From: Branchiostoma floridae | Lineage: Eukaryota > Chordata > Leptocardii > Amphioxiformes > Branchiostomatidae | Assembly (NCBI RefSeq): GCF_000003815.2 | Contig: NC_049996.1 | Location: 7,542,205 to 7,606,204, forward strand | Direction: 5' to 3' | Length of the DNA: 64,000 nucleotides | In this document: positions 43,513 through 63,555 of the stretch, piece by piece | Numbering within the stretch: the first letter of the stretch is position 1 | How the letters are laid out: each line of letters opens with the position of its first letter | Translations under genes and position numbers: made by a program | Notes under the pieces: generated by a model | Seen by the model: the letters and a program-made list of their open reading frames with translations, nothing else | Told to the model about the DNA's origin: nothing | Databases searched by the model: none

Positions 43513-46500
43513 TCATTGTTTTAGCTTCTGGCAAATGTAGGGACGGTCACACAGGCAGTGTGCATCATTCCACTTTCCTCTTGTTGACGCTTGGCGACCA
43601 AAAAGCCAGTTAGGTTCAGGTTGCTACAAGCAAGAAACCATTAATTTTGAAATCACTACTACTTAAATGTGAAAGTTAAAATAACACGCACAATAACCTG
43701 AAGTAGAAATATTCTGAAGAATGTGTGCATTTTTTTTTACATAAATCATGAATATACTGTGTGTATGACATGCAAAATGGCCACTTTAATCACCATTAGA
43801 ATTCCATTTCTGATAACGTGTGATACACATTGATACATGCACATGTCATGTAACTGCACTCTTGGAAAGACAAATTTATAATCTACAATGTAGTTTTCAG
43901 CTAAACAGGTGGAGAAGATCTTATAACATATTGTTGATTTTTTGTGAGAAATTAGTGAGAAACATATTTCAAAATTTGGCATTTTCAAAGTTTAGAAGCA
44001 TATTGAAATGAACTTTATGCTAATTTCTGACATCAAATTGGCCAAAGCATAATGTTTGAGCCTCTCTATACTGTTACAAACAAGCTTCAGGATATTATCT
44101 GGAAAATAATATTTTACTAAGCGCCTAGGGGTGGGTAACAGTTGGCTTGTACTAGTATTTAAAAAAATGAGTGGTTTTGATACTTTACGCTTGTTATACA
44201 TTTTGCCATTGGAACTGATTCACTGAAAGCAAAGAAACACCCACCTTGGAGTACATAGAAACACATTCCTCTCTCCCATCATTATGATAGAGTTTCGAGG
44301 TTACCCTCTTATTGTTAGGCTCACCAGGCTTCCAATTGCTGTATGTGAAATGTGTACCATCTCTCCACTTCCATACAGATCCACTTTTACGAAGTCCAAT
44401 CCAGACCGCGTCAGGGGCTGAAAAAAATGCAATAAGAAAGGGTCTGTTTATTTGGTTGACATTCAAATAAATTTTGAAATATATCTTGGTGTTTTTAAGC
44501 TTGCCATTTTCACAGTCAATGGAACCTAGAGTCCATTCCAAGACACCATGCGGATGTTTGTTGCCATTGTTTAGAATTGATTTTAAAAGTTTTGTTTATT
44601 ATACATGTATGTCTAGGACATTTGATACTTCAGAAATATTTTTAACGCTGTTTTAACTTTATAAATATTTCCCTGGTCCTGTAAAACTTTGGAAATATTC
44701 ATGGTGTGGAATTGGATACTTCTAATGGTTTCTTAATAATGATAACAGCATTCTACCATTATTTACCATTTTCTACCATTTTCTACACAAATGTACCATT
44801 TTTACCTTCACCAAGAAGGTTATATTTTGGGTAGCGTTTGTTTGTATGTATGTATGTATGTAGAAGACCAGAATAACTCAAGAACGCCTGGATGGATTGC
44901 ATTGATATTCGGTATGTGAGTAAGTCTTGGTGAGACCTGGAAACGATTAGATTTTGGGCCCCCTAGCAACCTGTTATGGTACTGCAGCAGAACTTCCTGG
45001 TTTGATATCTCAAGTTCTGAACATGCTATGGCCATGATTTTTTAGTGGTAGACAGCTCTTGATGCCGAGAGTAAGTGGTGTATGTTTGGGCCCCCTAGCG
45101 GCTTGTTTTGGAACTGCAGGGCAGGTTTAGTGTCAGACTTTAAAAGGGAATAACTCAAAAAGGGGTTAACGAATTGTTATCATTTTTGGTATGTAGATAG
45201 CTTAAGCGATGCTTCATATAATGACATATTAATTATGCAAATTTGTATCTAATTTGCATAATCAATTATGAAATTTTATGAACATGCTCAGTTCCAGTAT
45301 GGGACCATTGCAACATGTGACACCTGTAACTGAGAAGGAGAAGAATACTTATTGATATATATTATGCAAAATAAGTACCTAATTTGCATAATTAATGAGA
45401 AAATGCTACAATTTTATTGTCGTAAATGACAGTAACTTCTTACTTGTAGCATTTGGAAGTTATGTACGGGTGAACATCGTTGAACATTAATTATGCAAAT
45501 GAGGGTCTCATTTGCATAAATTATCAGAAAATGCGATAAAAGCCTTCTTTCTTAACATAGATTGTGTACGTCTGGTGTGTGGTAGAGGAGATAATCAACT
45601 GATACAATTTATGTAAATAAGAACCTTATTTGCATAATCAATGATAAACAATTAAAGCAGCAGTTGTAAAGAAAGGTAGGATTATTTGGCGAAGGTATGG
45701 GGTCGTGGAACTCTAGTTTGTAAATGGTTCAGTGGGCTGGGAAGATAGCAATTCACACATCCTTGCAAAGTATGGTTGGGTGCCATGCAACAATGGCCCA
45801 CCACCAGTGCCCTGCAGTAAAATCTAAAAATATACAGATGCAACAATAGGGCTTACTTTTATGGGGGCAATAAACTAATTTTACCATTTGACAAAGTTTA
45901 CAAATATTTGTAAATATTTGTAAATGTGAAATAATCACACAGAGCTTTCACAATTATTCTAAATAAAGATATTTTCGTACAGTCACTTTCAAAATGTTTC
46001 TAAAATATTCAAATTCAAATAGAGGAGTATTTTCTAAGTGAATTTTTTGAAAAGAATTTAATCATTTTGGCTCAGATATTCTTTTATTCAAAATAATTCA
46101 GACTTATTATATATATCGCCTAAAAACCCTCATGGTGTCTTGGAATGGACTCTAGTTCATGTATTATGGTACCTGTCCATGAATTTCCAAGTATATTCAG
46201 CCCTTTTAACTGTCATGAAGATAACCTGACCTGACGTTTTCGAATAAAGCTACAAAATTTAGGTTATGATGAGAATGTGATATTAATTTAAGTAGCTTTC
46301 CTTGGATAATAATCACCTTTAAGCATCTGTGATCCTTTGCATTTTTGCATGTCTATTAGTAACAATATTTTCCTGTAATTTAATTTGATAGCTTTATATT
46401 TTGTGAGGATCACAAGAGTCCATTATTCCATATGGATTAAATTTCTTGGAGGGTTGTATTTTGTTTGTTAATGGCAAACCACCTTTAAGTAACACCAGTT

Positions 46501-49500
46501 TTGTATAGAAAAAAACAACAACAAGCTGTTTAATGTGCGTAGACAGGACTGCCTTAGATGAATGGAAAGGAGCTCTTTTCAGTAAGTCTGGTGGGATCTT
46601 AAACATGGTTGATCATCAAATGAAAATCATCACCCTTTTTCATGAAGGTAAGAAAAACCCTTACTACTTTTCCTGATGAGACCTGCAATGAAGTTGTTTT
46701 CCCCAGGACCTTTGATGGTAGCAAGACTGGCACCATGTTGGATACATTGTGAGTCTGCTGTATACCAGCTGACTTGGTCACTCACAAACTTGTAGCAGTA
46801 GCTGTTAGATTCAGTCCATCCACTTTCGCATTGGGCTGTAACATTGACAACAAAAGAAGAATTAGGTTTTGACTTTATGTGCTAAATGATAATGACATAA
46901 CTTACAATGTTACTTAGTATCTTTCCTTTCATACTGCATTATCAAAAGCTCAATTTGTTATCCGTTCCAACACTCCAGTGTCCAAGCATTTACATTGGAC
47001 TGTCAACAGTAGGCATAGAGCATTAAGTACTGTAAATGTATTTAAGTTCGTGGGGATTTAATTTCGTGGTAGCGGGAAAAAGGACCATTCACTGTGGGTT
47101 TGTGGCAGCACCATGCACTGTAGTCTCTTACTGATATGGCGCGAACATAAATCCACCAAGAAAATTTCTGCATTTACAGTAATCAACATGCAAACCTGAT
47201 GAATGAAAAACTCAGTTTTGCTTTTTACATAGTTGGTCAATGTTCATTTTTCAAAATTGGTAAGCTTTTCCTCAAAATCTTAGAATGAAAGAAAGATTTC
47301 ATGTATTGGCAACTGTGGTCCGACAACAAGTTTTGCAGCCATTGTTGTTCTAAGGCACAGTGCACCGCATATACTTTGGGAACGAGTAGTACTGAGTAGT
47401 AGTAGTTAATCCATTATTTGATCATACTGCTGCTGGGATCTCTGACACAGCAGTCGAATAGTCTTCACACTGTGCTTCCATGTGGCTCTGTCTAGTGGGC
47501 CAACCCGTTAGATCGCACGCCGTGATCAAGTCGATGTCCCTCCTAACACACTCCATCTAACGAGTCCACCTCGTAATGGGTCAGAGATCACGGATATTTC
47601 AACCTGACAGGATTCACTCTAGTCATATCCTCATAAACAGAGATAAACGTGTATGGCATCATTTTCGTGTCAAAATTTCGTATTGAAAAAGGTACCTTAA
47701 AGAAGCGAAAATAGACGTAAATACGTCTACGCTGCTTTGAACAAAACGTCGTTTCGGTGGGCTTGAAGGGGCCTTTTGAACGATGCCCATACGTCCCCTT
47801 TGCATAGCTTTACAATTTCCGTGTCAAAATAACGTTCTGGAAAAGGGTACCTTAAACAAGCGAAAATACGTGTACGATGCTTCAACACGGACGTTACGTA
47901 ACGATAGCGTGCCACGATTTCCTGCAATATCGCATATCATAGCAACATTGAACCAAATATGTATGCTGTAACGTTACACGTCATACGGAACGTACATCCC
48001 CTTCTCACTCCAACATCGTTATGCCCCACTTGATCAAGTCAACGTTACCATAAGCGACGTCTGGCGTACCATCAGGTACTGCGTACGTGTCACTTGAAAT
48101 TGAAGCATCGTCACATATTCAAGACCCTTCCACCCCCCAATTCCAAACCTAAAGGTTACATAATCAGACCTTACCACAGACTGGTACATGTACGTCACAG
48201 TACTCCCATCTGGTGCTGGGATCCGTGGTATAGCACCAAACCCCGGCGTCGCCGCCCGGATTCCGGCAGTAGTTCTCCTCCAGTCCGGATGATGGGTAAT
48301 CAGCAGTTGTATAGTCGTGGTCATGAGGATACTGACTGTCCCAGCGCTGACACGTCCTGCCTGTTTCGGTCACGGCGACTGTTCCTCGGTAGGAAACCCC
48401 ATTTCCAACCTGGCAATCTCCTGGTTTATGTGATTTAAAAAAAAAGCAGTATATGATACACGCTGGCTTACTTTTGAAGTGGAGTATAAGCTAGTCTAGG
48501 ATGGGAGGATATAGTTGATGACAGGCCTGGGGTAATAACGCATAGCTTTATGTGCTACCGTGTGGTGATTGCGTTGTATCGTTACGCTTTATCGCCTCCT
48601 CACAGAATCTGTGGAGACAGAAAAACAGAACAAAATTGAACTTAATTTGTTCTGAAATAAGTATCGTCCATGAGGCCCCTTTCGTCCTACCAAAACGACA
48701 TGTTTGTTTGTGTTATAATGAAAGCATCTTTTTCAAACGAAATTACAAAATTTTGACGCAGAAATTATGCACATGCCATAATCGAAATTGTTTTACGTAT
48801 ACGATATCATCTCGGGGATAAAGATATCACCATACTCCGTAGTACGCAGCAAAATTCACTTTGCTAAGATATCGTTATAAGACGTACCTTAAAGTATCGT
48901 AATTATGTTTAACGAAATTCTGACGATATTTCTTTTGCTTACAGTATTGTTCTGGCATGTACATTCTATTTCTCAATATCGTATCACGAAACGTGCACTA
49001 TGACTTCTGCATGTTTAAGATTTCACGGTGGTGGGCGGTGCTTATTTCTCTGCCTCATTTTCCCACAGAATTTGATGAAGCTCTCTTTATGGCCCTTTAT
49101 CTATTCATCTGATTTTCCCTTGAGGACATTTACCCATCCACTTGTCATCTTTGAAAGACCTTCCCCTACACCAGAAATAGCAGAATGATACCTGCACACG
49201 TGACGCGTGGCACTTACCCGCGTCCTTGTTTGGGCAACTTAAAAGGCATGTGGTAGAGAGTTGTCAATCACGTCGCCCTGTCATGTGCCAGACCTTGACT
49301 TTGACTTAGTTTTAATCGCAACAGGTACAATGTGCTAAACGTTTTATGTCATTGTTTTATCCGCACTCCAAATCACCTAGCTTCCGCCACCTTTTCCAAG
49401 TGGGGCTATCGCTACAATATCGCAACGTCCCTGTTGAAACATCGTACACGTATTTTCGCTCGTTTAAGGTACCCTTTTCCAAAACGTTATTTTGACACGG

Positions 49501-52109
49501 AAATTGTAAAACAGTGCAAAGGGGTAATTTGGGCATCTTTCAAAAGGCCCCTTCAGGCCTACCGAAACAACGTTTTGTTCAAAGCATCGTAGACGTATTT
49601 ACGTCTCTTTTTCGCTTCTTTAAGATACCTTTTTCAATACAAAATTTGCAACCAAGTAGGCCAGCTCGCACGCTGCAATAGACGTATCGTCTTATCATGC
49701 CTATCGTCTAAGCTTGCGATGTGGCGCTTACGATAGACGCTTATAAGGCGCTATCATATACATATGTGGTAGACGTCTTTTCGTTACTTTAACGCACGTT
49801 TTGTGATATGATATTCAGACATAGAATGTACATGCCAGAACGATACCATTTAAAAACATCGTGTGAATTGCGATATCCTATACCTGATGACGATAGTTTA
49901 AGGTACGTCTTATAACGATAACTTAGCAACGTGCGTCTTGCTGAGTATATCGATATTTTTAGTTCGAGACGATATCGTAAACGTAAAATTACGTATATCG
50001 TAGACGTATTTACGCTAGTTTAAGGTACATTTTTAGATACGATATTTTGACACGGAAATGATGCCATAAAACGTGATCTTTGGCCACACCATTTGGGACT
50101 ACTTCACCAAGTGGTCTCCCAGGTTCAATCCTACATCGGGCATCTTGGTTGGGGCTGCACCTGTCTTTTGGAAGGGACAAAAACTGGGGTACCCTGTTTG
50201 AGGAGGTGCCTCAATCACGTTATCAAAGGACTATCAACCCCTCCCTGTAATATTGTAGTTTGTACCCTGCTACTGAAACAGTGAATTTAGCTTGTATTGC
50301 TAGCAGCTCAATGTGCCACCTGAAGGGTATGAATGACCCCATAAGACAGTTGACAGTTAAATGCACTGAATCACTTATTGTGCAGGAACAAAGTTTTCAA
50401 TGAGCTCTGTACAACAATGCTTACGTGTACTTGTTACAGTTGTTGATGGAGGAGTAGGTTCTTTCATCTTTGGCAGAGACAAGAAGGGGTTTGAGATGCT
50501 TTCTTCCACAGGCACAGTCATCAATGGAGAAATGGAAATCTCAGTGGCCAAGTTGATCAGGGCCGAGCTGTTTTTCTGACAGAAACTCCATGACACTGGA
50601 ACGCGGGAATTTGCTAGGTTAACCCGGTCCTTAGTGCCATCTTGATTCGGTGAATTGTGTGTTCCCTGGAAACAAGTTTGCAGCTTTTAATTAAGATACA
50701 AACAAAAATTAAAAGGATTTGGTGATAAAAATCAAAAAGAATTGGTGGTCATTGCCCGAGATGAATCTTTCTGGAAATCTGCATTCTCAGGTGGGTGGGT
50801 GGGTGGGTACGGAGTACTAGTATAAGTACGTTTTTTCTTATCGGACAGGTCCGGAAGAAACTGACCTGAAAAAATTTGGTGGACCGGATATTAGACCGAT
50901 TGGAAAATTGATTATATGATCAGGCATTCACACGTTTTGGGGCTTACCGGTCGAAGAAAATAAAAGAACGAGTACAGTCTATAGTCATTTCTACCAAGTT
51001 TTACAGTCAATCGTACTGAGGCAGTTACATTTTTTGTAGCCTTGTAGGATTTTATAACGCCAGTGGGAGTCGCATACTCCACAAAACAGATTTCTTTGTA
51101 GCTAAATGGACCATTATTTTACTACAATGTATCATCCATTCACAAGACCTGATCCTCAGAGGACCTGAACCAAACTGGACCTGAATTTTCTGTACTAGTA
51201 CCCTCCCCTAGTCTTGATAAATGAAAACTATGAACAGATCAGAAGACAATGATTTTTATTGACCAGTTGACTTACCTTACTACCAGGTTTGATGTAAGCA
51301 AACAAGACCACTGCAATGACGACTGTCGCTACCACCATGAGCACACAGCAAAGAATTGTAAGCCAGCAAGCCCATCCAGATTTTGCCTTGTTCCACATTT
51401 CTGCAGCACGCTCTGAGATTCAATACAAAACACACATCAATTTTTTGACAAAAATTGACAAGCAACTGGATATGATTTTGGAAACAGTCAGACGTTTCAG
51501 ATGGCATCCATTCATATCAAATGGAAACTCATCTGTGTTGGTAGAAATAGTTACAAAGTTGAGCTTAAAAGTTTGCTCCAATACAAATTAAGCACTCACC
51601 ATGAACAAATGTACAATTTTTGTTAGGGCATATACAAATATATGTACTTTTGAAAATTTGCAACAAACAGATGCAGCTACTTTGCTTTTTGAAAAATAAG
51701 AACATTCATGTATTATTCATTATCCCTTTGATTAGTCCTTATCTTTACCACAGACTGTTTTGCAATTTGAAGATATTTTCAACCTTCTCATCCATATGGT
51801 TCTTTAAAAGATCTGCATGAGAATCAACAAATTAAGTCGGTGTGGCCGAGTAAACTTTCAGCTCTCTCAAAATTATCTACGTTTCTCTTGTTCTTCATCT
51901 CTATCATTCTCCCCTAGTTTGTAATTCTCACCTGAGCATGACTTTTCCATGTGGTTTTGCATGTCAGGTTTGGGTGGTTGTCCACTGGAGCTATCACCTT
52001 GCGGCCCATCTTTAAAGTCCACATCTTCGTGCGTTTGGTCCACATGTTTTGGGTCCATGTCTTCATATTCATTTTCTAGGCACTGCGTCCTAGTATTATT
52101 CGATGTCAT
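43513..52109 (-). CDS. Type II membrane protein with kringle and C-type lectin domains (7 exons)
   Basis: Exons: 52109-51881, 51412-51276, 50665-50425, 48420-48175, 46835-46683, 44417-44245 and 43623-43513. Total 1290 nt, 429 residues, every junction in phase. Order: acidic cytoplasmic tail (1-76); one transmembrane helix (WLTILCCVLMVVATVVIAVV, ~92-115); Ser/Thr/Pro stalk; kringle (~203-284) with all six cysteines and TCQRW, NYCRNP, WCYTTDP; and a C-type lectin domain with WIGL, the EPN motif (KPGEPNN) and WND. EPN plus WND are calcium-dependent sugar-binding residues, usually of mannose type. The likely role is a cell-surface lectin receptor, perhaps in innate recognition. The first donor is uncertain (51881 or 51932, both phase 1). 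The donor at 46683 (GTCTCA) is weak. Kringle and CTLD identities are firm; their joining is inferred from phase, order and strand. Confidence 0.75.
44803..45720. repeat. Dispersed repeat with paired ATGCAAAT palindromes
   Basis: It begins ACCTTCACCAAGAAGGTTAT and ends GGCGAAGGTATGGGGTCGTG then GAACTCTAGTT, the same end as near 10450 and, in variant form, 63535. Inside, four spaced pairs of ATGCAAAT-like and ATTTGCAT sit at about 45233, 45364, 45489 and 45612, roughly 125 bp apart. It lies in an intron between two lectin-domain exons. No ORF; a non-autonomous element of unknown class. Confidence 0.7.
47640..50070. repeat. Large inverted-repeat block around the kringle exon
   Basis: About 47665-47920 (reverse complement) matches 49410-49650 at roughly 90% by eye, including AAAAGGCCCCTTCA, CGTAGACGTATTTACGTCT and TTTAAGGTACC. 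A second pair, 48845-48995 (reverse) and 49792-49945, shares AGAATGTACATGCCAGAACR and AAGGTACGTCTTATAACGAT. The GTAGACGTATTTACG module recurs at 50000. The kringle exon (48175-48420) lies inside. It looks like one or more nested fold-back elements; no transposase was found. Confidence 0.75.
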
Positions 52110-52617
52110 TTCTGCAAAGAAATGCCCAGTTGTTGTAATAAGCATTGAATAGAAATGATACCAAATATCACTATAGTGTATTCAAATACCTTTCAAATAC
52201 TTCTTTATTGTCAGCATTTCCAAAAGTGCTCCTGCAAGAAGACAGCCTTATTGGAAATATTTTGTAAATGCATAACATACTTGTTTTTCCTTTTCCTTTC
52301 ACTTTTTTCTCACTCTCTTTTTTAACAGAAAACCAATTGCAATGAGGCCAGTACTAATATGCCCCCTGTGATATCAAAATTAACACTTTTAAGTATGCAA
52401 TATCATAAACTGTACCAGACTAATTTCAAACCATATTTGTAAACCAAACAACCACACAGATGTTGTAATTATTCTATGAGTCTAACAGTATCACTATGAC
52501 TGATTAATCTGAAAGTTACCACAGTGAAAAATTGGCTATTTCAAAATACTGTCATTGCTCAATTCCATCCTATCTTAAGAGGTTGCAGAAAGAACAAGAG
52601 TTCGGAGACCTCATACC

Positions 52618-54163: not shown

Positions 54164-54528
54164 AGGTATAATCTTAAACAACATGGAATTTGGCAAGCTG
54201 AAAAGGTGCAGGTTAAATGGTCTGGTGATCTGTCCATCTTTAAACTATGATTATGCAACATTAATGAATAATCCATTGTAGTCTACTCAACAATAGCATG
54301 AAATTGTTTCAACTTAAAATCTTCAAAGCACGAAAAAAACATGCAAACATATCAATATACATTAAGTACCTTCACCTCCCTCTTTTTTTTTTAATTGAAA
54401 ATGCAACATTATGGACAAAGACGAACTAGTAGACATATTGAGGACGCACTTAGTACCATAATATATCACAGCACCACAACAAAGATGATTTTAGAATGGA
54501 TGGTAGTATATAATAAAGGTGAACCTAC

Positions 54529-54724
54529 TTCCTTCTATGCGACCATCTCCGCTTGTCCTCTCCAGTTTGTAGTCCTCATTCAAGCATGACTCTTCTTTCT
54601 GTAAAGGCCACATCACAAGACGCTTAGGAAGGGGTCGAGGTGTTGCAGCATGTTCCGAATCCTTCCCACCATCAAACTTACGGTCCACGTCTTCATACTG
54701 GTGGTCCGCTTCTCTGCACGCCAT
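54529..54724 (-). CDS. Second N-terminal exon homologous to exon 1 of the kringle-lectin gene
   Basis: The frame starts MACREADHQYEDVDRKFDGG and includes EESCLNEDYKLER. The main first exon has ENEYEDMD and EKSCSGENYKLGE at matching places, so the two are paralogous. Both start as CAG/AAATG, that is, an acceptor three bases before the ATG, and both end in phase 1 (here A/GTAGGT). It could be an alternative first coding exon giving a different cytoplasmic tail, or the remnant of a duplicated gene whose remaining exons are absent here. Similarity is moderate, so the duplication is not recent. Confidence 0.6.
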
Positions 54725-56505
54725 TTCTGTGGACTGCTTTTGGTAATTAAAAATAAGAACATTTAATACAGTTTAATGATTAATTTTTATACATCAAATT
54801 TCCTTTAGGCACTGGTGTACCTAACGCAAAATTTCGTGCCATCATTGTGCAGAATTTAAACATTAACAAACCTGCCAAATTAAAACTGAGTTTTGAGTAG
54901 AAAAATTGAAGTGAACCCAATATCAAGGCAAATTTCAAAACTATGAATAAGTAATTAAAAAACAATACACTTCAATTTCCAAACTTTGCTGTTTACTATA
55001 GTGTACTGTTGCCTTAAATACATTAAACCTCACACTAATGCCGAGTAATGGTATATGGTATGCATTCAGTATTTCAAGCCCTGCACATTCAAAAGAAAAA
55101 ATGCCAAGCTTGTGCACATAACACTAAGGCTCGTTGTGATAATATTATTTGTATCAAAGTTTTATAGAAACTATGACCAAATTAGGATATTAAGTCTTAT
55201 TCTCTACACCTATTTTGTACTTTGTGTAACAGTCGCTGCCATACTTTGTACCATGTACAAATGTCGAGCAATAAAGTTCTATCTGTATGACTGTGTTACT
55301 GTATGTGGCTCAGTGTACAGTTTTAAAAGATACTTTTGGCGTTTTGGAGTACCCTACGGTTCATACTAACTTTTATGATCTTGAGAGTTCTATGTAAATG
55401 AAATTTCTATGTAAAACATTGCTTTCTGTATTGTTTTAATAATGAGGAACATTTGTACTAGTAGTAAGACAAGTTTTTTAGGCTTAAACTATTGGCCAAA
55501 TACTTGAACCAAATAATGTCGGCAAAAATTTAGACAACAGAAGTATATATACAATATCATCACTTGGCCAAAATTGCCCGGGGTGGACCGAATTGAAATC
55601 AAACAGCTTGAGTCCAAAAGAAAAGGCACGTAGCTACGGGCCCCACCCAAAAGTGAAAAAAGAAACAGCCAATTAACGTACTTGGCAGGGCACGTTTGCC
55701 AATGTCACCAAGACAGAAAAAAGCCTAATTACAGTGTTTGTAACCATGGATCAACAACAAGAACAAGTGTAATATATACCTTATGGATTCTGACAACCAA
55801 CACTTCAGCTTGGCCAACACGTTTACAGTCCTGCCTGCAAGAGACAATCAAAGTGATTGAACAAAATTTCTCCACCTTTCCTTCACCTTTCTGCAGATAT
55901 TGATTATATGATTAATGTACATGTACATGAGTTCCCAGAATTACAGTGAAAACAACTTTAAACACTTTCAACTTTACCAGACTAATTGCAGGCTAGGACG
56001 TGACAAAAAATCAGTTTACCCTGATATTCAAGGCTTAGAGTTAGAGTTCTAACATGAGCCAGCTTGGGTATTTGCAGAAATATTTTCCAAATTGAAGGTG
56101 AAATTTTGGATAACATGCAGTATTGCAGATAATCCCATTCATGTATTTTTTACTTATTGACAAGATGCTTCTGTCAATAAGCTTTTTCAAAGGATGTTTC
56201 CATGAACGTTTTTTTTTCAAATATTGAGTGATGATTATGTACTAATATTTGTATTGATATTGTGATTGATGTACGCCCCTACAAGACTAACGTTACCGAA
56301 TACGGCCAACAATTTTAAAAAAAACACAGTAAAACGACAAAACCATTTGGAAGAACAAAAATAACATATTTTCACACTTTCAATCTGATCTGCATTGAAA
56401 GAGGGTCATATTAGATATGAAAACAAGGAAAACATTAAGAGAAAGCAGCAAGTATGAGTTTGAGGGTGGGGGAGATACCGACATTATTTGTAAATTGTTG
56501 GGTTG
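54725..56505. other. AT-rich intergenic stretch
   Basis: No gene was recognised. Open frames such as 55055-55369 (+) have no family or splice support. The promoter of the lectin gene may lie here. Confidence 0.45.
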
Positions 56506-58887
56506 GGTAAGGGAGATCACTGCTGTCTGCGTTTCCACGTTGGTGTAGATGAATCAGTTGAGACTCAACCATCAGTTAGAAGGAACTATAACAAAGGCCA
56601 GTATGCTAAGGCTGGAAAGCTACTTGAGGACATTGATTGGCAAGAGGAAATGGAAGACTTGGCTATACAGGAAGCGTGGGACGTATTCAGTGCCAAAATC
56701 AACGACATAATAGAAGACTGCATCCCCATATCCAAACCCAACCTCAAAGCAAATAAACTTTACATGAATAAGCGAGCTATGAAGGCAAGAGACCGCAAGA
56801 GAAAAGCTTGGGCCAAATTCAAGAAAACTGGGAAGTCACAAGACTATGCAAAGTATGCAAAGGAGAGAAACTCTCTATGAAGTGTAACAAGAGAGCTTTG
56901 CAGCAGTTTTGAACACAGAGTGGTTAAAGATATTAAAGAAAACCCGAAGGCTTTCTGGAGGTACGTCTCTAGTAGACTGCACACAAGACCACTGGAAGAA
57001 TAGCTGGCAACATAATGTGGTAATAGCTAAAAGTGGATCTGAATAAAGTCAAAGTCAAAGGTGCACTGGTCAGGGAAGATGGCACGGTAGCTGAGACTGA
57101 CGAAGAGAAGGCAGAGGTCCTGAATGACTTTTTCGCCAGTGTCTTTACAGCTGAGGACGTGACACATATTCCCAACATTAGCAGCATTCCTGGCACTATG
57201 ACAGTAGAAGTCATACACATCACTGAGGACATGGTGCTGAAGAAGCTGCAAGAGTTAAACCCTACGAAGTCGTCAGGCCCTGACAACATTCACCCTCGAC
57301 TCTTGAAGGAATTGGCATACCACCTGGCAGCACCCTTAACTACTCTGTTTGGGAAGTCGCTGGAAACTGCAAAGTAACACCAGAGGAGTGGAAGCAGGCA
57401 CACGTGACGCCTATCCACAAGAAGGGAAGCAAGAGTACTCCAGGGAACTACAGACCAGTGAGTCTGACGTCTGTAGTGGGGAAGTCAATGGAGTCAATTG
57501 TCTGGGACACACTAGTAGACCACATGATGCGAAACAACTTCTTCACGGATGCCCAACACGGGTTCGTACCTGGTAGGTCATGCATGACACAACTTTTAGT
57601 TGTGATGGAGGAGTGGACCAGGTCACTCCAGGAGGGTGAGCCCTTAGATGTGATTTACTTAGATTTCCGGAAAGCTTTTGACACAGTCCCACACATGAGA
57701 CTTCTCCAGAAACTTGAGTGGTACGGAATAGGGGGTCGACTTAGAGACCGGATAGCGGACTTTCTAGCAGGAAGAAAGCAAAGGGTGGTGGTCAACGGTA
57801 AATTCTCATCTTGGCAAGAGGTTAAGAGCGGCATTCCACAGGGAAGTGTGTTAGGTCCGATCCTCTTCGTGATCAACATAAACGACTTGCCGGAGGTAGT
57901 AACCTGTGCTGTAAAGACTTTCGCAGACGACAGCAAGCTGTACAACAGGGTAAAACTAATCTCCAAGCAGATCTTGCTGTGGCAAATGGGAAAGAGTGTA
58001 GCCGGCAGAGGAGTTATTGGCCACAGCGGAGGCAAATAATCCTCCTCTGCCGGCTAACTCCTTCCCCAGCTTATGTTACTTTCTTATGCCACAGAGGAAT
58101 CTGCTTGGAGATTAGGGTAAAACACCGCAGCGGTCAAGAGTCCCTGCAGCAGGACCTGGAAGCAGCAGGGGTGTGGTCTGAGAAGTGGCAACTTCATTTC
58201 AATGTCGGAAAATGCAAGGCCCTACACCTAGGAAAGTCCAACCCTAGAACCACGTACGTCCTAGGAGCACAGAACATAGAGGAAACAACGGAAGAAAAGG
58301 ACCTGGGGGTTCTGGTGGACAACCAACTGTCTTTCCATGCACATACAGCCAAAGCATCAAACAAGGGGAACCAGATGCTAGGTCTCATCAACAGAACATT
58401 TTACAACTTAGACTCACAGACGGTCCCTACCCTTTTTAAGACCATGGTAAGGCCGCATCTGGAGTAGGGTAACATCATTTGGGGGCCCCACTTCATCCTG
58501 GACCAGATTAGGATTGAGAAAGAACAGAGAAGGGCAACAAAGCTAGTGAAGGACTTGAGAGACCTCCCGTACAGCGAGCGACTTATTAAGCGACTTCGAC
58601 TTCCATCTTTACCGTACAGACGACAGCGGGGGGATATGATCCAGGTCTACAAGTTCTTAACAGGCAAGGAGAGAGTTCAGGGAGACACCTTTTTTGAGAG
58701 GGCGGATAACACAACAACAAGAGGACACAGTCTAAAACTGAAGATTCCCCTCGCTAAGTCGAGGTTGAGAGCCCAGGCTTTTAGCACAAGAGTAGTAAAG
58801 AACTGGAACTCCCTGCCAGAGAAAGTGGTGAGCAGTAACACAGCGAACCAATTCAAAAACCAACTAGTCCAATCCTCCCTCGACTGA
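56506..58887 (+). mobile_element. CR1-like LINE, 5'-truncated and broken, interrupted by a MITE
   Basis: It begins in the last part of the endonuclease (GDHCCLRF) and runs through the reverse transcriptase to the end of ORF2. RT motifs: SSGPDNIHPRLLKEL, YLDFRKAFDTVPH, SGIPQGSVLGPILF and FADDSKLY. The C-terminal block (RGHSLKLKIP, FSTRVVKNWNSLP, NQFKNQL) is standard for CR1-type elements. Breaks: stops and frameshifts at about 56878-57030 and near 57376, the MITE at 57957-58114, and an in-frame TAG at 58465-58467. The RT active site is intact but the element cannot be autonomous. The short repeat GGTATGCAGGTATGCAGGTA at the 3' end is probably the tail. Confidence 0.88.
57957..58114. mobile_element. 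158-bp MITE inserted in the CR1-like LINE
   Basis: Ends TAATCTCCAAGCAGAT and ATCTGCTTGGAGATTA are perfect inverted repeats of 16 bases. A second internal stem pairs AGCCGGCAGAGGAG with CTCCTCTGCCGGCT. GGGTAAAAC occurs on both sides (57948-57956 and 58115-58123), a 9-bp target duplication. Removing the insert restores LINE sequence between FADDSKLYN(R) and QESLQQDL. A 9-bp duplication is typical of Mutator-like elements; the family is inferred. Similar ends occur near 41201 and 62495. Confidence 0.93.
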
Positions 58888-59254: not shown

Positions 59255-62191
59255 CTACAATAGCGTTTCTGACTCCCAATACGGTTCGTGGCGTGAGTTC
59301 CAGATAGCATATGACGATAACATCGCAATGCGGCTTATATCAGTAAACAGAGTCTTCGGTGGTTTGGCTTTAACTATTTTGAACAGTGTTCTAAGCCTGG
59401 TCTTGTTCTCTGGCGTGACGAGTCCCCTTGATCCGACTTCAAAGCAGGTTAGTGTAGCGGAAATGCCAGCAGTTTCTAAATCTGCTGCTAGGGTGCTGTA
59501 TTTGTTGACCTTTCGGTCATGACTTGTTTTGATGTTCTTTTCAAAGGGTACAGTCAGTTCATGGATGTGGAGGGTCTTCTGTTCTGGTAAATATATGATC
59601 AGGTCTGGTTTCTGGGTAGTGGGTATTGTATGGACCGGGATGGTACCTCCGTTAGTTGTGTAACCTTGTATGTCCGCATAGATGGTGGCGTTGGTCCGAG
59701 AGGTGTCAATGGACTCTATGATGGTGTCCGTTATGTGCTTCAATACCGAGTTGTGTCGGAATGTGTACCGTCCTTGTTGGAGAGCGACACCGCAGTGGTT
59801 CAGAACGTGGTGGAGTGTTTCCCGGTTGCCACACAGTTTACATTTGTCAGTGTTACGTTTTCCCCAGGTGGTCAGGTTACAGAGTGTGGGGAGGGCGTCG
59901 ATGGAGGCACGCACAGCGAAACTGAGGATGCCCCTCGGCAGGTTGTACATAGCGGACCGCCATGTCAGGTCGCATTTTTCTTCCTCAAGCAGTTGTAGCA
60001 TCTGCCCTTGCTGTAGAAGGTTTTCCTGATGTTTACTCCAGACGTCATGACGCATATCTGTGACTTGTTGTTTGACATGTTTACGTATTGATGTCCATTC
60101 TGAGTCCTTTGCTGCATGGATGGCTTGCTGGTGGATGGTGTGACACTTTCCAATACCCCATTTCTGCATTTTCCTAGTCCATTGCGATTCGCGATCCAGT
60201 TTGGCTTGTAAAGCGTGTTTTACCTTCTCATCTGCTTTGAGGACTGACCTACTGTAGGCCAGAGCGTGGGCTTCTAGGTACAGGTCTGAGATGCTTTTGA
60301 AGTTGAGACCCCTTGTGTTGTACAGAATTGCATTTGTTGCACTAGGTTGCATTCTGAGCCATGTTTTGATCACCTTTGTGTGGATAGAATCAAGCTTTTG
60401 TAGCTGGGTGTCTGTCAGGTCGTGCACCATCAGCATGTACCTCCAAGATGGGAAGGCGTACTCCATGTAAACCCTGAGTTTGTATTCGTTCCTTATCGCT
60501 GATTTGTTTATGTTTTCAACAGTCGTTTCTATTGTCTTTGCTAGGATGTCATAGGTCTCTTTTGTTTTACTCAGGAAGGTGATGTAGCCACCTAGGAATT
60601 TCTCCGGTGCATCTTTGGTCGTTTTGACAGGGTCCCCATCTATCATGAAGCTGATGTCCGATGGCTTCCCGCTCACTATAGACATAGACTTACACTTGCG
60701 TGGTTTTAGCTTTAGGTTCATTGACTTTGTGTTGGAGGAAATTTGAGTAATTAGTTTCTGATGCTGTCGTTTGTTTGTGGTTATGAGGCAAAAGTCGTCT
60801 GCGAAAGGCAGTGTAACATAATGCTTGTCATTGAGGTTGTAGCCGTGTTGCTGCTCTACTCCCTTGAGATGCTGTAGGATAGGCTGGAACACCGTTAGGA
60901 AGATGATGGGTGACAAGTTGTCTCCTTGGAACACTCCTCTTCCGAACGGGAACGGATCACTTTCCCAGCCTGGACCCTTCACTTTCCCTTTCAGGCGAGA
61001 ATACAGGTTTTTAATGTACGTGGTGATAATTGGCGGGAAGCCGTTTCTCTCCATCTGGTAGTAGATCAGTTCGTGTTCCACGGAACCAAAGGCATCCGCG
61101 AGGTCAAACCATGTAATGTGGACTGTACGGCGGTTTTTCTTGGCATGTGCTAAGATCTCCCGCATAACTTGGACATGCTCCACACAGCCGTTGATTCCGG
61201 TCAGGAATGCCTTTTGTGTTTCTGGGTCTATCAGGTCATTGCAAGTCATGTACTTTGCCCATCGTTCCGAGAGTATTTGGTGGAAAATCTTGGAGACGCA
61301 GGAAGTAAGGCAGATCATTCGAAAGTTTTCGGCAGCTTCTGGACTACCATCCTTGTGTATAAGTGACACGTTACCAGATGACCATGATGTCGGTGGGTCT
61401 CCGGACTCAAGCAGTTTGGAGAACAGTGTACTAAGGAACAGGTGACAAGCTGGCAGGTGCTTGAGGTGGCCATACATGATCCCGTCCGGGCCAGGTGCAG
61501 ATGTAGCGCATCGTTTGGATAAGACTGCCTTAATGTCTTTCGGCCTGACAGGTGACATGTCAAAAGAGTTCGCAGGTAGTTGTTCCTCCACCGGCAAATG
61601 AGGAAACCAGAGCAGTTTGTTGAAGTCAACACGGGTTGGGTGTGAGTATTTGTTTTTGTAGTACTCATTTGCATAATAAACAGAGAATGCCGGTTTTACT
61701 GGGGGGATATCGAGCTGTCCTTTTGCACATTTACCGGCAAACTTCCAAAAGTTCTTATGATATTCTTTCTCTTGGTGTGCTGCCGATTTTGTAGTTTCCT
61801 TTCGTTTCTGTTGTCGCTTCATAAAGGAGTATGTTTTAATTGCATCTCTGAAAGCCTTTCGATCCTCAGGTGTTGCGTCAGCTCTGAATGCCTTCTTACG
61901 TAGCTTGTTTTTCAGGCGTTTTACTTGTGCGAGAGACTGTGGTTCGTGGCTTATATAGCCTTCTGAGTGACTTTCTCCTACAGACACAGGGGCACCCAAA
62001 ACGATCACAAATGCATCGGAAAAGAATCTGACGGAACTTACCGTCCAAACCGGGTGCAAAACGTCTTCCGAAGCGACGAATCTTGTGGTAAACACCCAGA
62101 TATTTCTGCTGACGGCCGCCATGTTTTTTGGAACTCCCGCCCCGCGGTGCATGCTGGGTGCCACCTGTCCTTGGTGCTGATCACTCTTCAT
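59255..62191 (-). mobile_element. R2/NeSL/Hero-type LINE with intact 978-codon RT-RLE ORF
   Basis: One uninterrupted frame encodes a reverse transcriptase followed by a restriction-like endonuclease. RT: SAPGPDGIMYGHLK (~232), motif A WFDLADAFGSVEHELI (~360), motif B RGVFQGDNLSP (~418), motif C PFADDFCLIT (~462). A CCHC knuckle (CKLCGNRETLHHVLNHC) is near 783-800. The endonuclease has PDLIIYLPEQ...HELTVPFE (~862-880) and a later K..KYSTL, the PD-(D/E)XK pattern. This RT-knuckle-RLE order is that of R2, NeSL and Hero elements, which insert by target-primed reverse transcription. Zinc fingers before the RT, seen in R2, are not evident, so Hero-like is more likely. The first ~80 residues look like 5' UTR or flank, so the true start may be later. 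The open frame suggests recent insertion. Confidence 0.9.
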
Positions 62192-62232
62192 GGTGATAGC
62201 CGGAGGAGCATAACTTGCTCTATTTAAAGATA
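62168..62232. repeat. Direct repeat, left copy (pair at 63766-63823)
   Basis: CCTTGGTGCTGA, ATAGCCGGAGGAGCATAAC and TGCTCTATTTAAAGATAT recur at 63766-63823 with a few changes and a short deletion. The two copies flank the repeat block 62233-63765. Confidence 0.8.
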
Positions 62233-63555
62233 TGTATTTTTACCTCCATGAAATGCCATGGAGGTTATATTTTCTGTTGTGTTTGTCTGTCTGTGTACAA
62301 GATTACTCAAGGACGGCTGGATGGATTGGTTTCATACTTGTTGTGTTGGTGGTGGGGTGTGATGAAAGCTCGAATTGATGAGATTTTGGGTGCCTTATCT
62401 GTCGTTATAATCGATGTAATAATATCAGAAATCACCCCTATATCTGCGATATATTGGAACAGGCATCGTGCTTTAAGTGTTTGTTAATGAGCTTATCTCC
62501 AAGCAGATAGTGAGGTGATTTGTATGACAGCTGTTTGGGGAACCCCGAGCTTTTTGAATATGGTAATTAGTTTTATTTATGTCTGCTTAGGATATCTGTA
62601 ACAGTTGCCTCCTTAGAGCAGTTGTTTGCCCATTCCGGTCAATTTGAATATTTTCAGTTGTATTTGTATGTTTGTGTACAAGATAAGTTAAGAAAGGCTG
62701 GATGGATTGGTTTCATACTTAGTGTGAAAGCTGAAAGTGATTAGATGTTGTGTTCTGCCTTGCATTACATTGAAGTTGTGTTAGTATGTACTTGGTTATA
62801 TTGTATATATATTATCTGTATGTGTTTGGTAATTCCTTATCTGAACAGTTGATGTCCTGATGTTGATGGCAACTGTTTGAAATATTTGCAACAGTTGGCA
62901 CCTTAGAGCAGCTTTTTGCCCATCCCGACATTTTAGAACATCTGTTTTGGGAAAGCCGGACAATTTTGATTGTGATAGTAAATTGCATGTATGTACTTGT
63001 GCGTTTGGGGACACAGTGTGTTATATTTCGTTTATGCTGTTAGATGTTATGTGGTGCGCCTTGCGTCACGCGGAAGTTTCGTTAGTATGTAATCGGATTT
63101 ATTTCATATCTATTATGTGGATGTGTTAGGTAATCCCTTATCCGAACAGTTGATGCGTATAGCAACTGGTTAGGGTAATGTAACAGTTGACTCATTAGAG
63201 CAACTGTTTGCCGATGCTGGACGATTTGAATATGATAAATAACTTTGTATTTAGCCACTTGTGCCTTTGGGGACCTGGTGTGTTATACTTCGTTTGCGCT
63301 GTTAGATTTTGTGCTCCGCGTGGCGTTATGCTGATGTTGTGTTGGTAAGTACTCGCATTATTATATATCTGGCATCAACTTGTCCCCGTATCCTACATGT
63401 AGGTATTGGTTGATGGATATTTCATGTCGTTTTGGTTGTGTTGATGATGTGTTTGTATCCTGTATTACTCTCAAATACAACCGACCATCAACATACAAAA
63501 CATCCACAAAAAGCAATAAATATTTCATGGAGGTATGAGGTCCCCGAACTCTAGT
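62233..63555. repeat. Degenerate tandem repeat block within a CATGGAGGT-ended element
   Basis: It begins TTTTACCTCCATGAAATGCC and ends TTCATGGAGGTATGAGGTCC, the ends of the repeat family at 52618-54163 in opposite sense. Inside, units of about 265-300 bp recur: TATCTGAACAGTTGATG at 62838 and TATCCGAACAGTTGATG at 63139; AACAGTTG...TTAGAGCA at about 62600, 62890 and 63185; GTGTGTTATATTTCGTTT at 63017 and 63280. Non-coding. Confidence 0.7.

Follow-up and report, generated by a model that had tools for sequence, protein, structure and literature searches.

A kringle exon very probably delivered by a DNA transposon into a predicted lancelet type II C-type lectin receptor gene

In the lancelet Branchiostoma floridae, a gene for a predicted type II membrane protein with a C-type lectin domain (CTLD) contains a kringle exon which was very probably delivered into the gene by an exon-carrying DNA transposon belonging to a proposed shuttle family. 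The gene lies on the minus strand of C18:7542205-7606204, a stretch of 64,000 nucleotides of the 513-Mb genome, which is called the window here and in whose numbering all positions without a chromosome name are given. The element around the kringle exon is recognisable by its structure, its two ends, a target-site duplication and an empty site in a paralogous gene; further copies are present in the genome and the frames are open.

Receptor gene and kringle-carrying element

Seven minus-strand exons were joined by a script, with matching phases, AG/GT borders at the predicted joins and no stop codon, into a protein of 418 amino acids. Coding exon 1 (51932..52111, ATG at 52109, leaving in phase 1) encodes the cytoplasmic tail and is followed by a transmembrane exon (51276..51412, phase 1-0), a stalk exon (50425..50665, phase 0-1), the kringle exon (48175..48420, 246 nt, phase 1-1, six cysteines) and three CTLD exons (46665..46835, phase 1-1; 44245..44417, phase 1-0, with EPN; 43513..43623, with WND and the stop codon). 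The first three have counterparts in a paralogue on C9 (for the tail from C9:2787179 onwards, for the transmembrane exon at C9:2787829-2787969 with 70% identity), the kringle exon is indicated by Pfam and its open frame and the CTLD exons by Pfam and the joined frame. Pfam assigned residues 188-263 to Kringle (94.4 bits, E 5.2e-27, model positions 1-77 of 79) and residues 288-415 to Lectin_C (67.1 bits, E 2.6e-18); three other matches each stayed under their own cut-off. A Kyte-Doolittle scan yielded a single strongly hydrophobic stretch starting near residue 69, and the predicted protein has the N-terminal anchor, the stalk and the one C-terminal CTLD of a type II C-type lectin receptor.

As a gene prediction this receptor architecture is confirmed and lies far above chance. 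A chance fusion of two genes was ruled out, because the phases match and the C9 paralogue is collinear. A self-search of the window gave no further convincing kringle or CTLD exons. A preliminary description of the window had already proposed seven exons joining in phase, a type II anchor with stalk, a complete six-cysteine kringle on a symmetric phase 1-1 module and a complete CTLD keeping EPN and WND. All of this was borne out by the prediction, including the symmetry of the kringle exon, whose omission leaves a still-open frame of 336 amino acids. What the description missed is that the kringle exon appears to be recent transposon cargo.

A repeat search of the gene showed the kringle exon to be flanked by long inverted repeats. 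They bound a non-autonomous DNA transposon of 2,417 bp (47652..50068, minus strand), inside which the kringle exon is oriented in the sense of the host gene. The ends read TATGGCATCATTT[C/T]CGTGTCAAAAT and share 24 of their 25 terminal nucleotides in inverted orientation; counted inward from 50068 and 47652, the outermost inverted repeat comprises 62 nt with 87% identity. Directly outside of the ends the target-site duplication CACGTTT (7 bp) is present in two exactly matching copies, upstream at 50069..50075 and downstream at 47645..47651 (minus strand). The left end (49645..50068, 424 bp, minus strand), referred to as type A, also occurs at other loci without the remaining element, and its ten listed copies are 89-97% identical (query about 33-456). 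The right end (47652..47898, minus strand) is of type B, and within it 47673-47898 matches 49421-49647 in inverted orientation with 91% identity.

The paralogue was found by using the tail, membrane and stalk exons as queries against the genome, and 10 kb of C9 were aligned. At C9:2786516-2793216 it is collinear with the window gene over the exons and parts of the introns (window blocks 52561-52291, 52138-50971, 50752-50439 (twice), 50449-50086, 47648-47216, 47029-46466, 44495-44191 and 43667-42631, the last being preceded by two short pieces of 43409-43186), with 67-83% identity in the longer blocks. Nothing in the paralogue aligns to window 50086-47648, that is, to the element with a few bases around it and with the kringle exon. 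The stalk exon of the paralogue is duplicated around a run of N.

We propose that the gene started out as one for an ordinary type II C-type lectin receptor, with a tail, a transmembrane exon, a stalk and a three-exon CTLD. A non-autonomous transposon with terminal inverted repeats (TIRs), already loaded with a host-derived kringle exon and its own splice sites, would have been inserted by cut-and-paste, presumably by means of a transposase, in sense direction into the phase-1 intron between the stalk and lectin exons, making the 7-bp duplication. With a symmetric (1-1) exon in a phase-1 host intron, the spliceosome could either include the kringle in frame or leave it out, and the protein would remain unbroken in both cases. 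The family itself would act as an exon shuttle, since other members carry other extracellular-domain exons.

Age of the insertion and alternative explanations

A copy on C13 (C13:13718605-13720133) covers some two thirds of the element including the kringle (window 49647-48088), with 94% identity. Over the 21.2 kb of C13 that were read (401 N), similarity to the gene region stops at most a few bases past the element, and no CTLD was seen. Gaps aside, the identity between window and C13 amounts to 97.5% in the upstream element, 98.7% in the pre-exon intron, for which 117 of 118 identical positions were also counted, and 97.7% in the 87 bp after the exon. The upstream part of the element diverges from the C13 copy by 2.5%, and the seven best type A copies are at 3-5% divergence from the element. 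As the synonymous divergence (dS) between the host gene and its C9 paralogue is 0.28, these divergences of 2.5-5% indicate that the gene duplication came first and the insertion later. The kringle element on C13 adjoins two Sushi exons on the same strand (C13:13718687-13721569; 5.5e-14 and 9.3e-13), and because of this neighbourhood a second, unrelated gene may have been joined by the same kringle.

Several observations weigh against such a simple course of events. The kringle exon itself is only 87.5% identical between window and C13 (dS 0.27, nonsynonymous divergence dN 0.10), far below its flanks. As the exon has diverged far more than these flanks, exon and vehicle are, judged by this comparison, without one simple common history. 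The exon core was likely replaced by gene conversion with another kringle, which is preferred over positive selection because dS exceeds dN; positive selection behind the divergent core was ruled out on these grounds. The window element is moreover a chimera of a type A left end and a truncated type B arm. A parental kringle was not found (16 of 41 matches fetched, 40 of 188 candidates scored), and neither was a transposase: MULE, the only superfamily searched, gave 27 domain matches, none of them inside elements. The match nearest to a listed end is 9.6 kb off in a by-eye comparison of 100 of the 168 ends, and a Mutator-type transposase is not supported, as no MULE match was seen inside elements. 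In the C9 paralogue, window 46466-44495 is also unaligned, so the element is not the sole missing block, and the C9 junction is about 14 nt longer than the window, with a poor local match. An 11-bp tandem duplication (C9:2787179-2787388) shifts the frame of the cytoplasmic first exon, because of which the paralogue may be damaged and may represent a pseudogene. Finally, dN/dS between the two genes is 0.84, which suggests that the receptor is only weakly constrained.

Inclusion of the kringle in the mRNA appears rather probable. The opposite case, in which the stalk joins the lectin directly (336 aa) and the unused kringle is intronic freight, is clearly the less probable one but has to be taken seriously. 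Skipping preserves the frame, symmetric exons can stay silent in introns and the C9 paralogue is without a kringle at the same place. However, acceptor and donor of the window exon are intact, its frame is open and its six cysteines are kept. Nine element-associated kringles likewise all have open frames and six cysteines, with 17-36 of 237 positions off consensus. Under independent neutral drift the chance that nine of nine frames stay open would be about 9e-6, a star-like approximation for loci picked by DNA similarity, which ignores shared ancestry and the choice of loci; gene conversion with functional kringles as donors could also explain the open frames. The acceptor AG is retained in eight of the nine (the exception being C3:33.63 Mb) and the GTAAGG donor in all of them.

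It is very unlikely that the kringle is an old exon of the gene and that two separate elements landed on either side of it. The presence of two types of ends, A and B, an end-like internal sequence near 48780 and a kringle-CTLD pair at C14:9.12 Mb with no A/B element sequence over the 2.3 kb read would fit this idea, but the outermost ends share one exact 7-bp duplication, the C9 paralogue is without the whole block including the kringle, and element and kringle occur together on C13 (94%). An old insertion which predates the gene duplication and was later excised from the C9 paralogue is hardly to be expected either. The roughly 14 nucleotides by which the C9 junction is longer could be the scar left by an excision, possibly consisting of the duplicated target plus filler. 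Yet the element differs by only 2.5-5% from its closest copies, compared with gene blocks of 67-83% identity, and the two CACGTTT copies are still identical. A spread of the kringle by segmental duplication or ectopic recombination instead of transposition is the most improbable alternative, for although the likely gene conversion of the exon core means that recombination probably acts at kringle exons, the homology between window and C13 is confined to the element and target duplications flank several family members. Delivery of the kringle by a transposon is thus the explanation we retain.

Some further features of the window were noted. Within the intron between CTLD exons 1 and 2, the unaligned stretch 44495-46466 contains a 34-nt inverted repeat (44526-44559 / 46122-46155) and is perhaps another insertion. 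Four AT-rich repeat units (ATTAATTATGCAAAT...TTTGCATAAT) lie in the first CTLD intron at 45228-45650, and similar sequence is found on C14 and C6. Upstream of the gene, an open reading frame (ORF) at 54491-54772 (minus strand) includes a tail-like stretch, QYEDVD..., which resembles EYEDMD of exon 1 and possibly marks a duplicated or alternative first exon. A 994-aa ORF at 59255-62239 (minus strand) and overlapping ORFs at 56494-58887 (plus strand) show FADD-type reverse-transcriptase motifs by eye and are presumably retroelements adjoining the receptor gene.

The element family and its cargo

The genome of 513 Mb contains 168 element ends, whereas the reversed control pattern gave none. Their proximity to domain exons was counted for 150 scored matches out of 528 kringle candidates and 150 out of 1210 CTLD candidates, using 100 of the 168 ends and taking exons as independent. 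A listed end was located at most 2.5 kb from 7 of the 150 kringle exons, as compared to 0.146 expected (Poisson P about 2e-10, or 1e-8 without the window kringle), and from 1 of the 150 CTLD exons. The corresponding numbers of kringle versus CTLD exons were 4 versus 0 at 1.5 kb and 9 versus 3 at 5 kb. Inspection of the same scored matches by eye revealed 8 places with a kringle and a CTLD exon on the same strand and no more than 5 kb apart, the window and C14:9.12 Mb being two of them. The order of kringle and lectin, which the preliminary description regarded as unusual and without known vertebrate parallel, is therefore not unique in this genome: the claim of uniqueness was too strong, and a unique kringle-lectin gene is ruled out by the other adjacent pairs.

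Target-site duplications across the family measure 7 bp, in one case 9 bp. The latter, an exact one, belongs to a kringle-bearing element with both ends at C2:27950504-27952755. Both ends with a kringle within are also found at C3:33626070-33626864, where the duplication matches in 6 of 7 bp and a flank search for the empty site gave matches dominated by an unrelated repeat. The element at C4:25005988-25007941 has two ends and a kringle but no clean duplication; in the intron flank of its kringle a 406-bp D-type element (ends TATGGCAATATATTTG) is nested, with the exact 7-bp duplication TACTGTC. At C3:10124101-10125217 a kringle is situated between related D-type ends, with a shared CATCCC one base out of register. 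The ends of the kringle copy at C14:5.05 Mb are degraded and no duplication is present; CTLD exons follow this kringle, and a membrane-exon match precedes it by about 9.5 kb. A kringle-free member (C7:17911463-17913535) is flanked by an exact 7-bp duplication. Nine further end pairs comprised four with exact 7-bp duplications (two of which represent one duplicated insertion), one with a single mismatch and four with none, and a target duplication was absent in six C5 end pairings.

The search for the closest DNA matches of the window kringle led to 16 fetched loci, of which eight showed strong, one weak and seven no A/B element sequence within 1.5 kb. None of the eight best Pfam kringle loci had such sequence, and in 165.7 kb of other sequence, A/B matches occurred only where it overlapped the window element and the C4 kringle element. 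Among the tested kringles without A/B element sequence the best match, with 85%, was at C9:4.73 Mb, with a D-type end beside it; the kringle at C3:10.12 Mb, an 87% match, has D-type ends on both sides. This C9 kringle exon (C9:4726533-4726772) has a match to CTLD exon 1 of another lectin gene on one side and to CTLD exon 2 on the other, has lost its acceptor AG and is directly followed by the start of the D-type element end. In a tree of 25 kringle exons, which has low support, the element-borne kringles fall into no single clade.

Other members of the family carry other cargo. Ten two-ended elements, chosen by their ends and not by their cargo, were read wholly or largely; the loci C10:18173283 (413 bp) and C14:18023662 (a duplicate) are outside this reading. 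Cargo exons were picked by eye from ORF lists, one with at least 50 aa and at least 4 cysteines (27 loci, L012-L038) and another without cysteine filter, and selected ORFs only were sent to Pfam. Eight of the ten elements contain a domain exon. Two CTLD exons are present in the element at C14:17969114 (1.3e-13 joined), and a CTLD was found at C19:14491340 (8.3e-17) and at C2:32152852 (1.6e-15); the element at C4:25023801 has the same CTLD cargo with a frameshift, as identified by cargo similarity and not by Pfam. WSC-like matches were obtained at C2:26263761 and C6:16551357 (about 5e-4 each) and at C7:23321335 (3.4e-6), and a hevein-like match at C5:3804068 (0.0056), with the hevein-like (17.3, 21.3 bits) and WSC-like (20.7-27.6 bits) matches all being under the curated Pfam cut-off of 27.8. 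Next to a WSC-like-bearing element, an SRCR exon on the same strand (C2:26267858-26268109) points to a possible receptor chimera. No domain exon was seen by eye in the elements at C7:17911463 and C10:564501 or in the half or so that was read of the one at C11:17469281, and none was recognised inside an element at the remaining listed loci, many of which show one end only.

Over their cargo, the three C19-type elements share about 96% identity, with different flanks, and the WSC-like copies are 86-98% identical to each other. Because of this near-identity the cargo is, by sequence comparison, of four kinds and does not represent eight separate captures. According to splice sites read by eye, all sister cargo enters in phase 1 and most of it is symmetric: the WSC-like and hevein-like exons are 1-1 and the C14 lectin pair runs from phase 1 to 1, while the C19-type lectin exon enters in phase 1 and ends with a stop. 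For a random 2-kb stretch, the candidate counts imply a chance of about 0.5% for a CTLD match and about 0.2% for a kringle. Halves of a GON domain are located between ends about 7.9 kb apart at C16:15134983-15142906 and C4:1984848-1992698, the former also with a hevein-like exon; these intervals may represent a larger cargo of several exons, or else host genes into which elements inserted separately. In a wider sense, this non-autonomous lancelet transposon superfamily could be a general shuttle that packages splice-ready phase-1 exons for extracellular and immune domains (kringle, C-type lectin, WSC-like, hevein-like and perhaps GON) and moves them between receptor introns, with the exons being updated by gene conversion, a plausible extension which we put forward tentatively and which falls somewhat short of being probable.

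Relation to known domains and exon-carrying transposons

The closest matches of the window kringle are the kringles of plasminogen and hepatocyte growth factor (97 bits against plasminogen kringle 4), with which it shares the six cysteines and core residues. It differs from them by a two-residue insertion ahead of the last cysteine (CDVHVPVC); of 12 other listed kringle exons, 11 read CD-x-P-x-C in this region and one CDIPC. The acidic residues in NPDAD of plasminogen kringle 4 are what we take to be its lysine-binding site. The window kringle aligns with NPGGD, and as one of the two acidic residues is missing, plasminogen-type lysine binding appears doubtful.

For the CTLD, matches comprise the mannose-receptor family, type II receptors (ASGR, CD23, CLEC10A, mincle) and other CTLDs. 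Vertebrate type II C-type lectin receptors likewise have a cytoplasmic tail, a single span, a stalk and a C-terminal CTLD with EPN/WND. The window protein differs from them by the extra kringle between stalk and CTLD, and the similarity of its CTLD to these receptors is generic, the top scores being those of mannose-receptor family chains with several CTLDs. EPN, EEC and WND, presumably the residues for Ca2+-dependent binding of mannose-type sugars, are all contained in the joined protein and suggest such binding. Most likely, the gene product is a type II lectin receptor of the pattern-recognition type, to which an optional kringle was recently added between the stalk and the lectin domain and which would function at the cell surface.

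Lancelets were reported to have the fastest exon shuffling, with a 1-1 bias and an enrichment of transposase fragments in translocation regions (Huang et al., 2014, PMC4284660). A lancelet pangenome paper cites B. floridae as richest in novel domain combinations and describes dispensable regions without robust association to flanking mobile elements (PMC12373286); another work deals with lancelet elements around opsins (PMC5802833). No lancelet transposon family with kringle or lectin exons was found in titles and abstract openings of the open-access literature. Recombination between introns is what is usually assumed to underlie the shuffling of phase 1-1 domain exons in animals. The present case would offer a concrete route for domain mixing in animals, in which a transposon brings a ready-made, splice-ready exon into an existing gene. 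Vehicle, ends, target duplication, empty site and repeated shipments of related exons can be seen in one genome and are young enough to be compared. This provides a concrete hypothesis for the origin of many new lancelet receptor architectures, and a general shuttle, if true, would be one of the main contributors to the record rate at which lancelets form new domain combinations, and to their 1-1 bias.

Among known systems, the window element is of the Pack-TIR kind, since its matching TIRs, its target-site duplication and the captured host exon inside are all present. For animals, 370 Pack-TIRs have been described, with mostly single-copy, short captures (median 224 bp, 13.4% with exonic sequence) mainly in hAT and Tc/Mariner elements; amphioxus, Branchiostoma and lancelet do not occur in the main text of that study (Tan et al., 2021, PMC8277862). 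These Pack-TIRs and the Pack-MULE and Pack-TYPE elements of plants, which are treated in a review (PMC13317346), resemble the lancelet elements in their TIRs, target duplications and captured host sequence, and sometimes also in having several copies and possible chimeric genes (PMC8277862, PMC13317346). Unlike the Pack-TIRs of Tan et al. (PMC8277862), several members of the lancelet family contain whole phase-1 exons of several extracellular families, with multicopy cargo, and as far as searched a lancelet family of this kind, with several copies that carry complete phase-1 domain exons from place to place, is new. With class 1-1 exon shuffling the lancelet elements have the symmetric phase 1-1 modules in common (PMC8001218, PMC4284660). 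Patthy (2021, PMC8001218) discusses recombination between introns as the mechanism for such modules, and the lancelet case differs from it in that a vehicle with ends, a target duplication and an empty site is visible.

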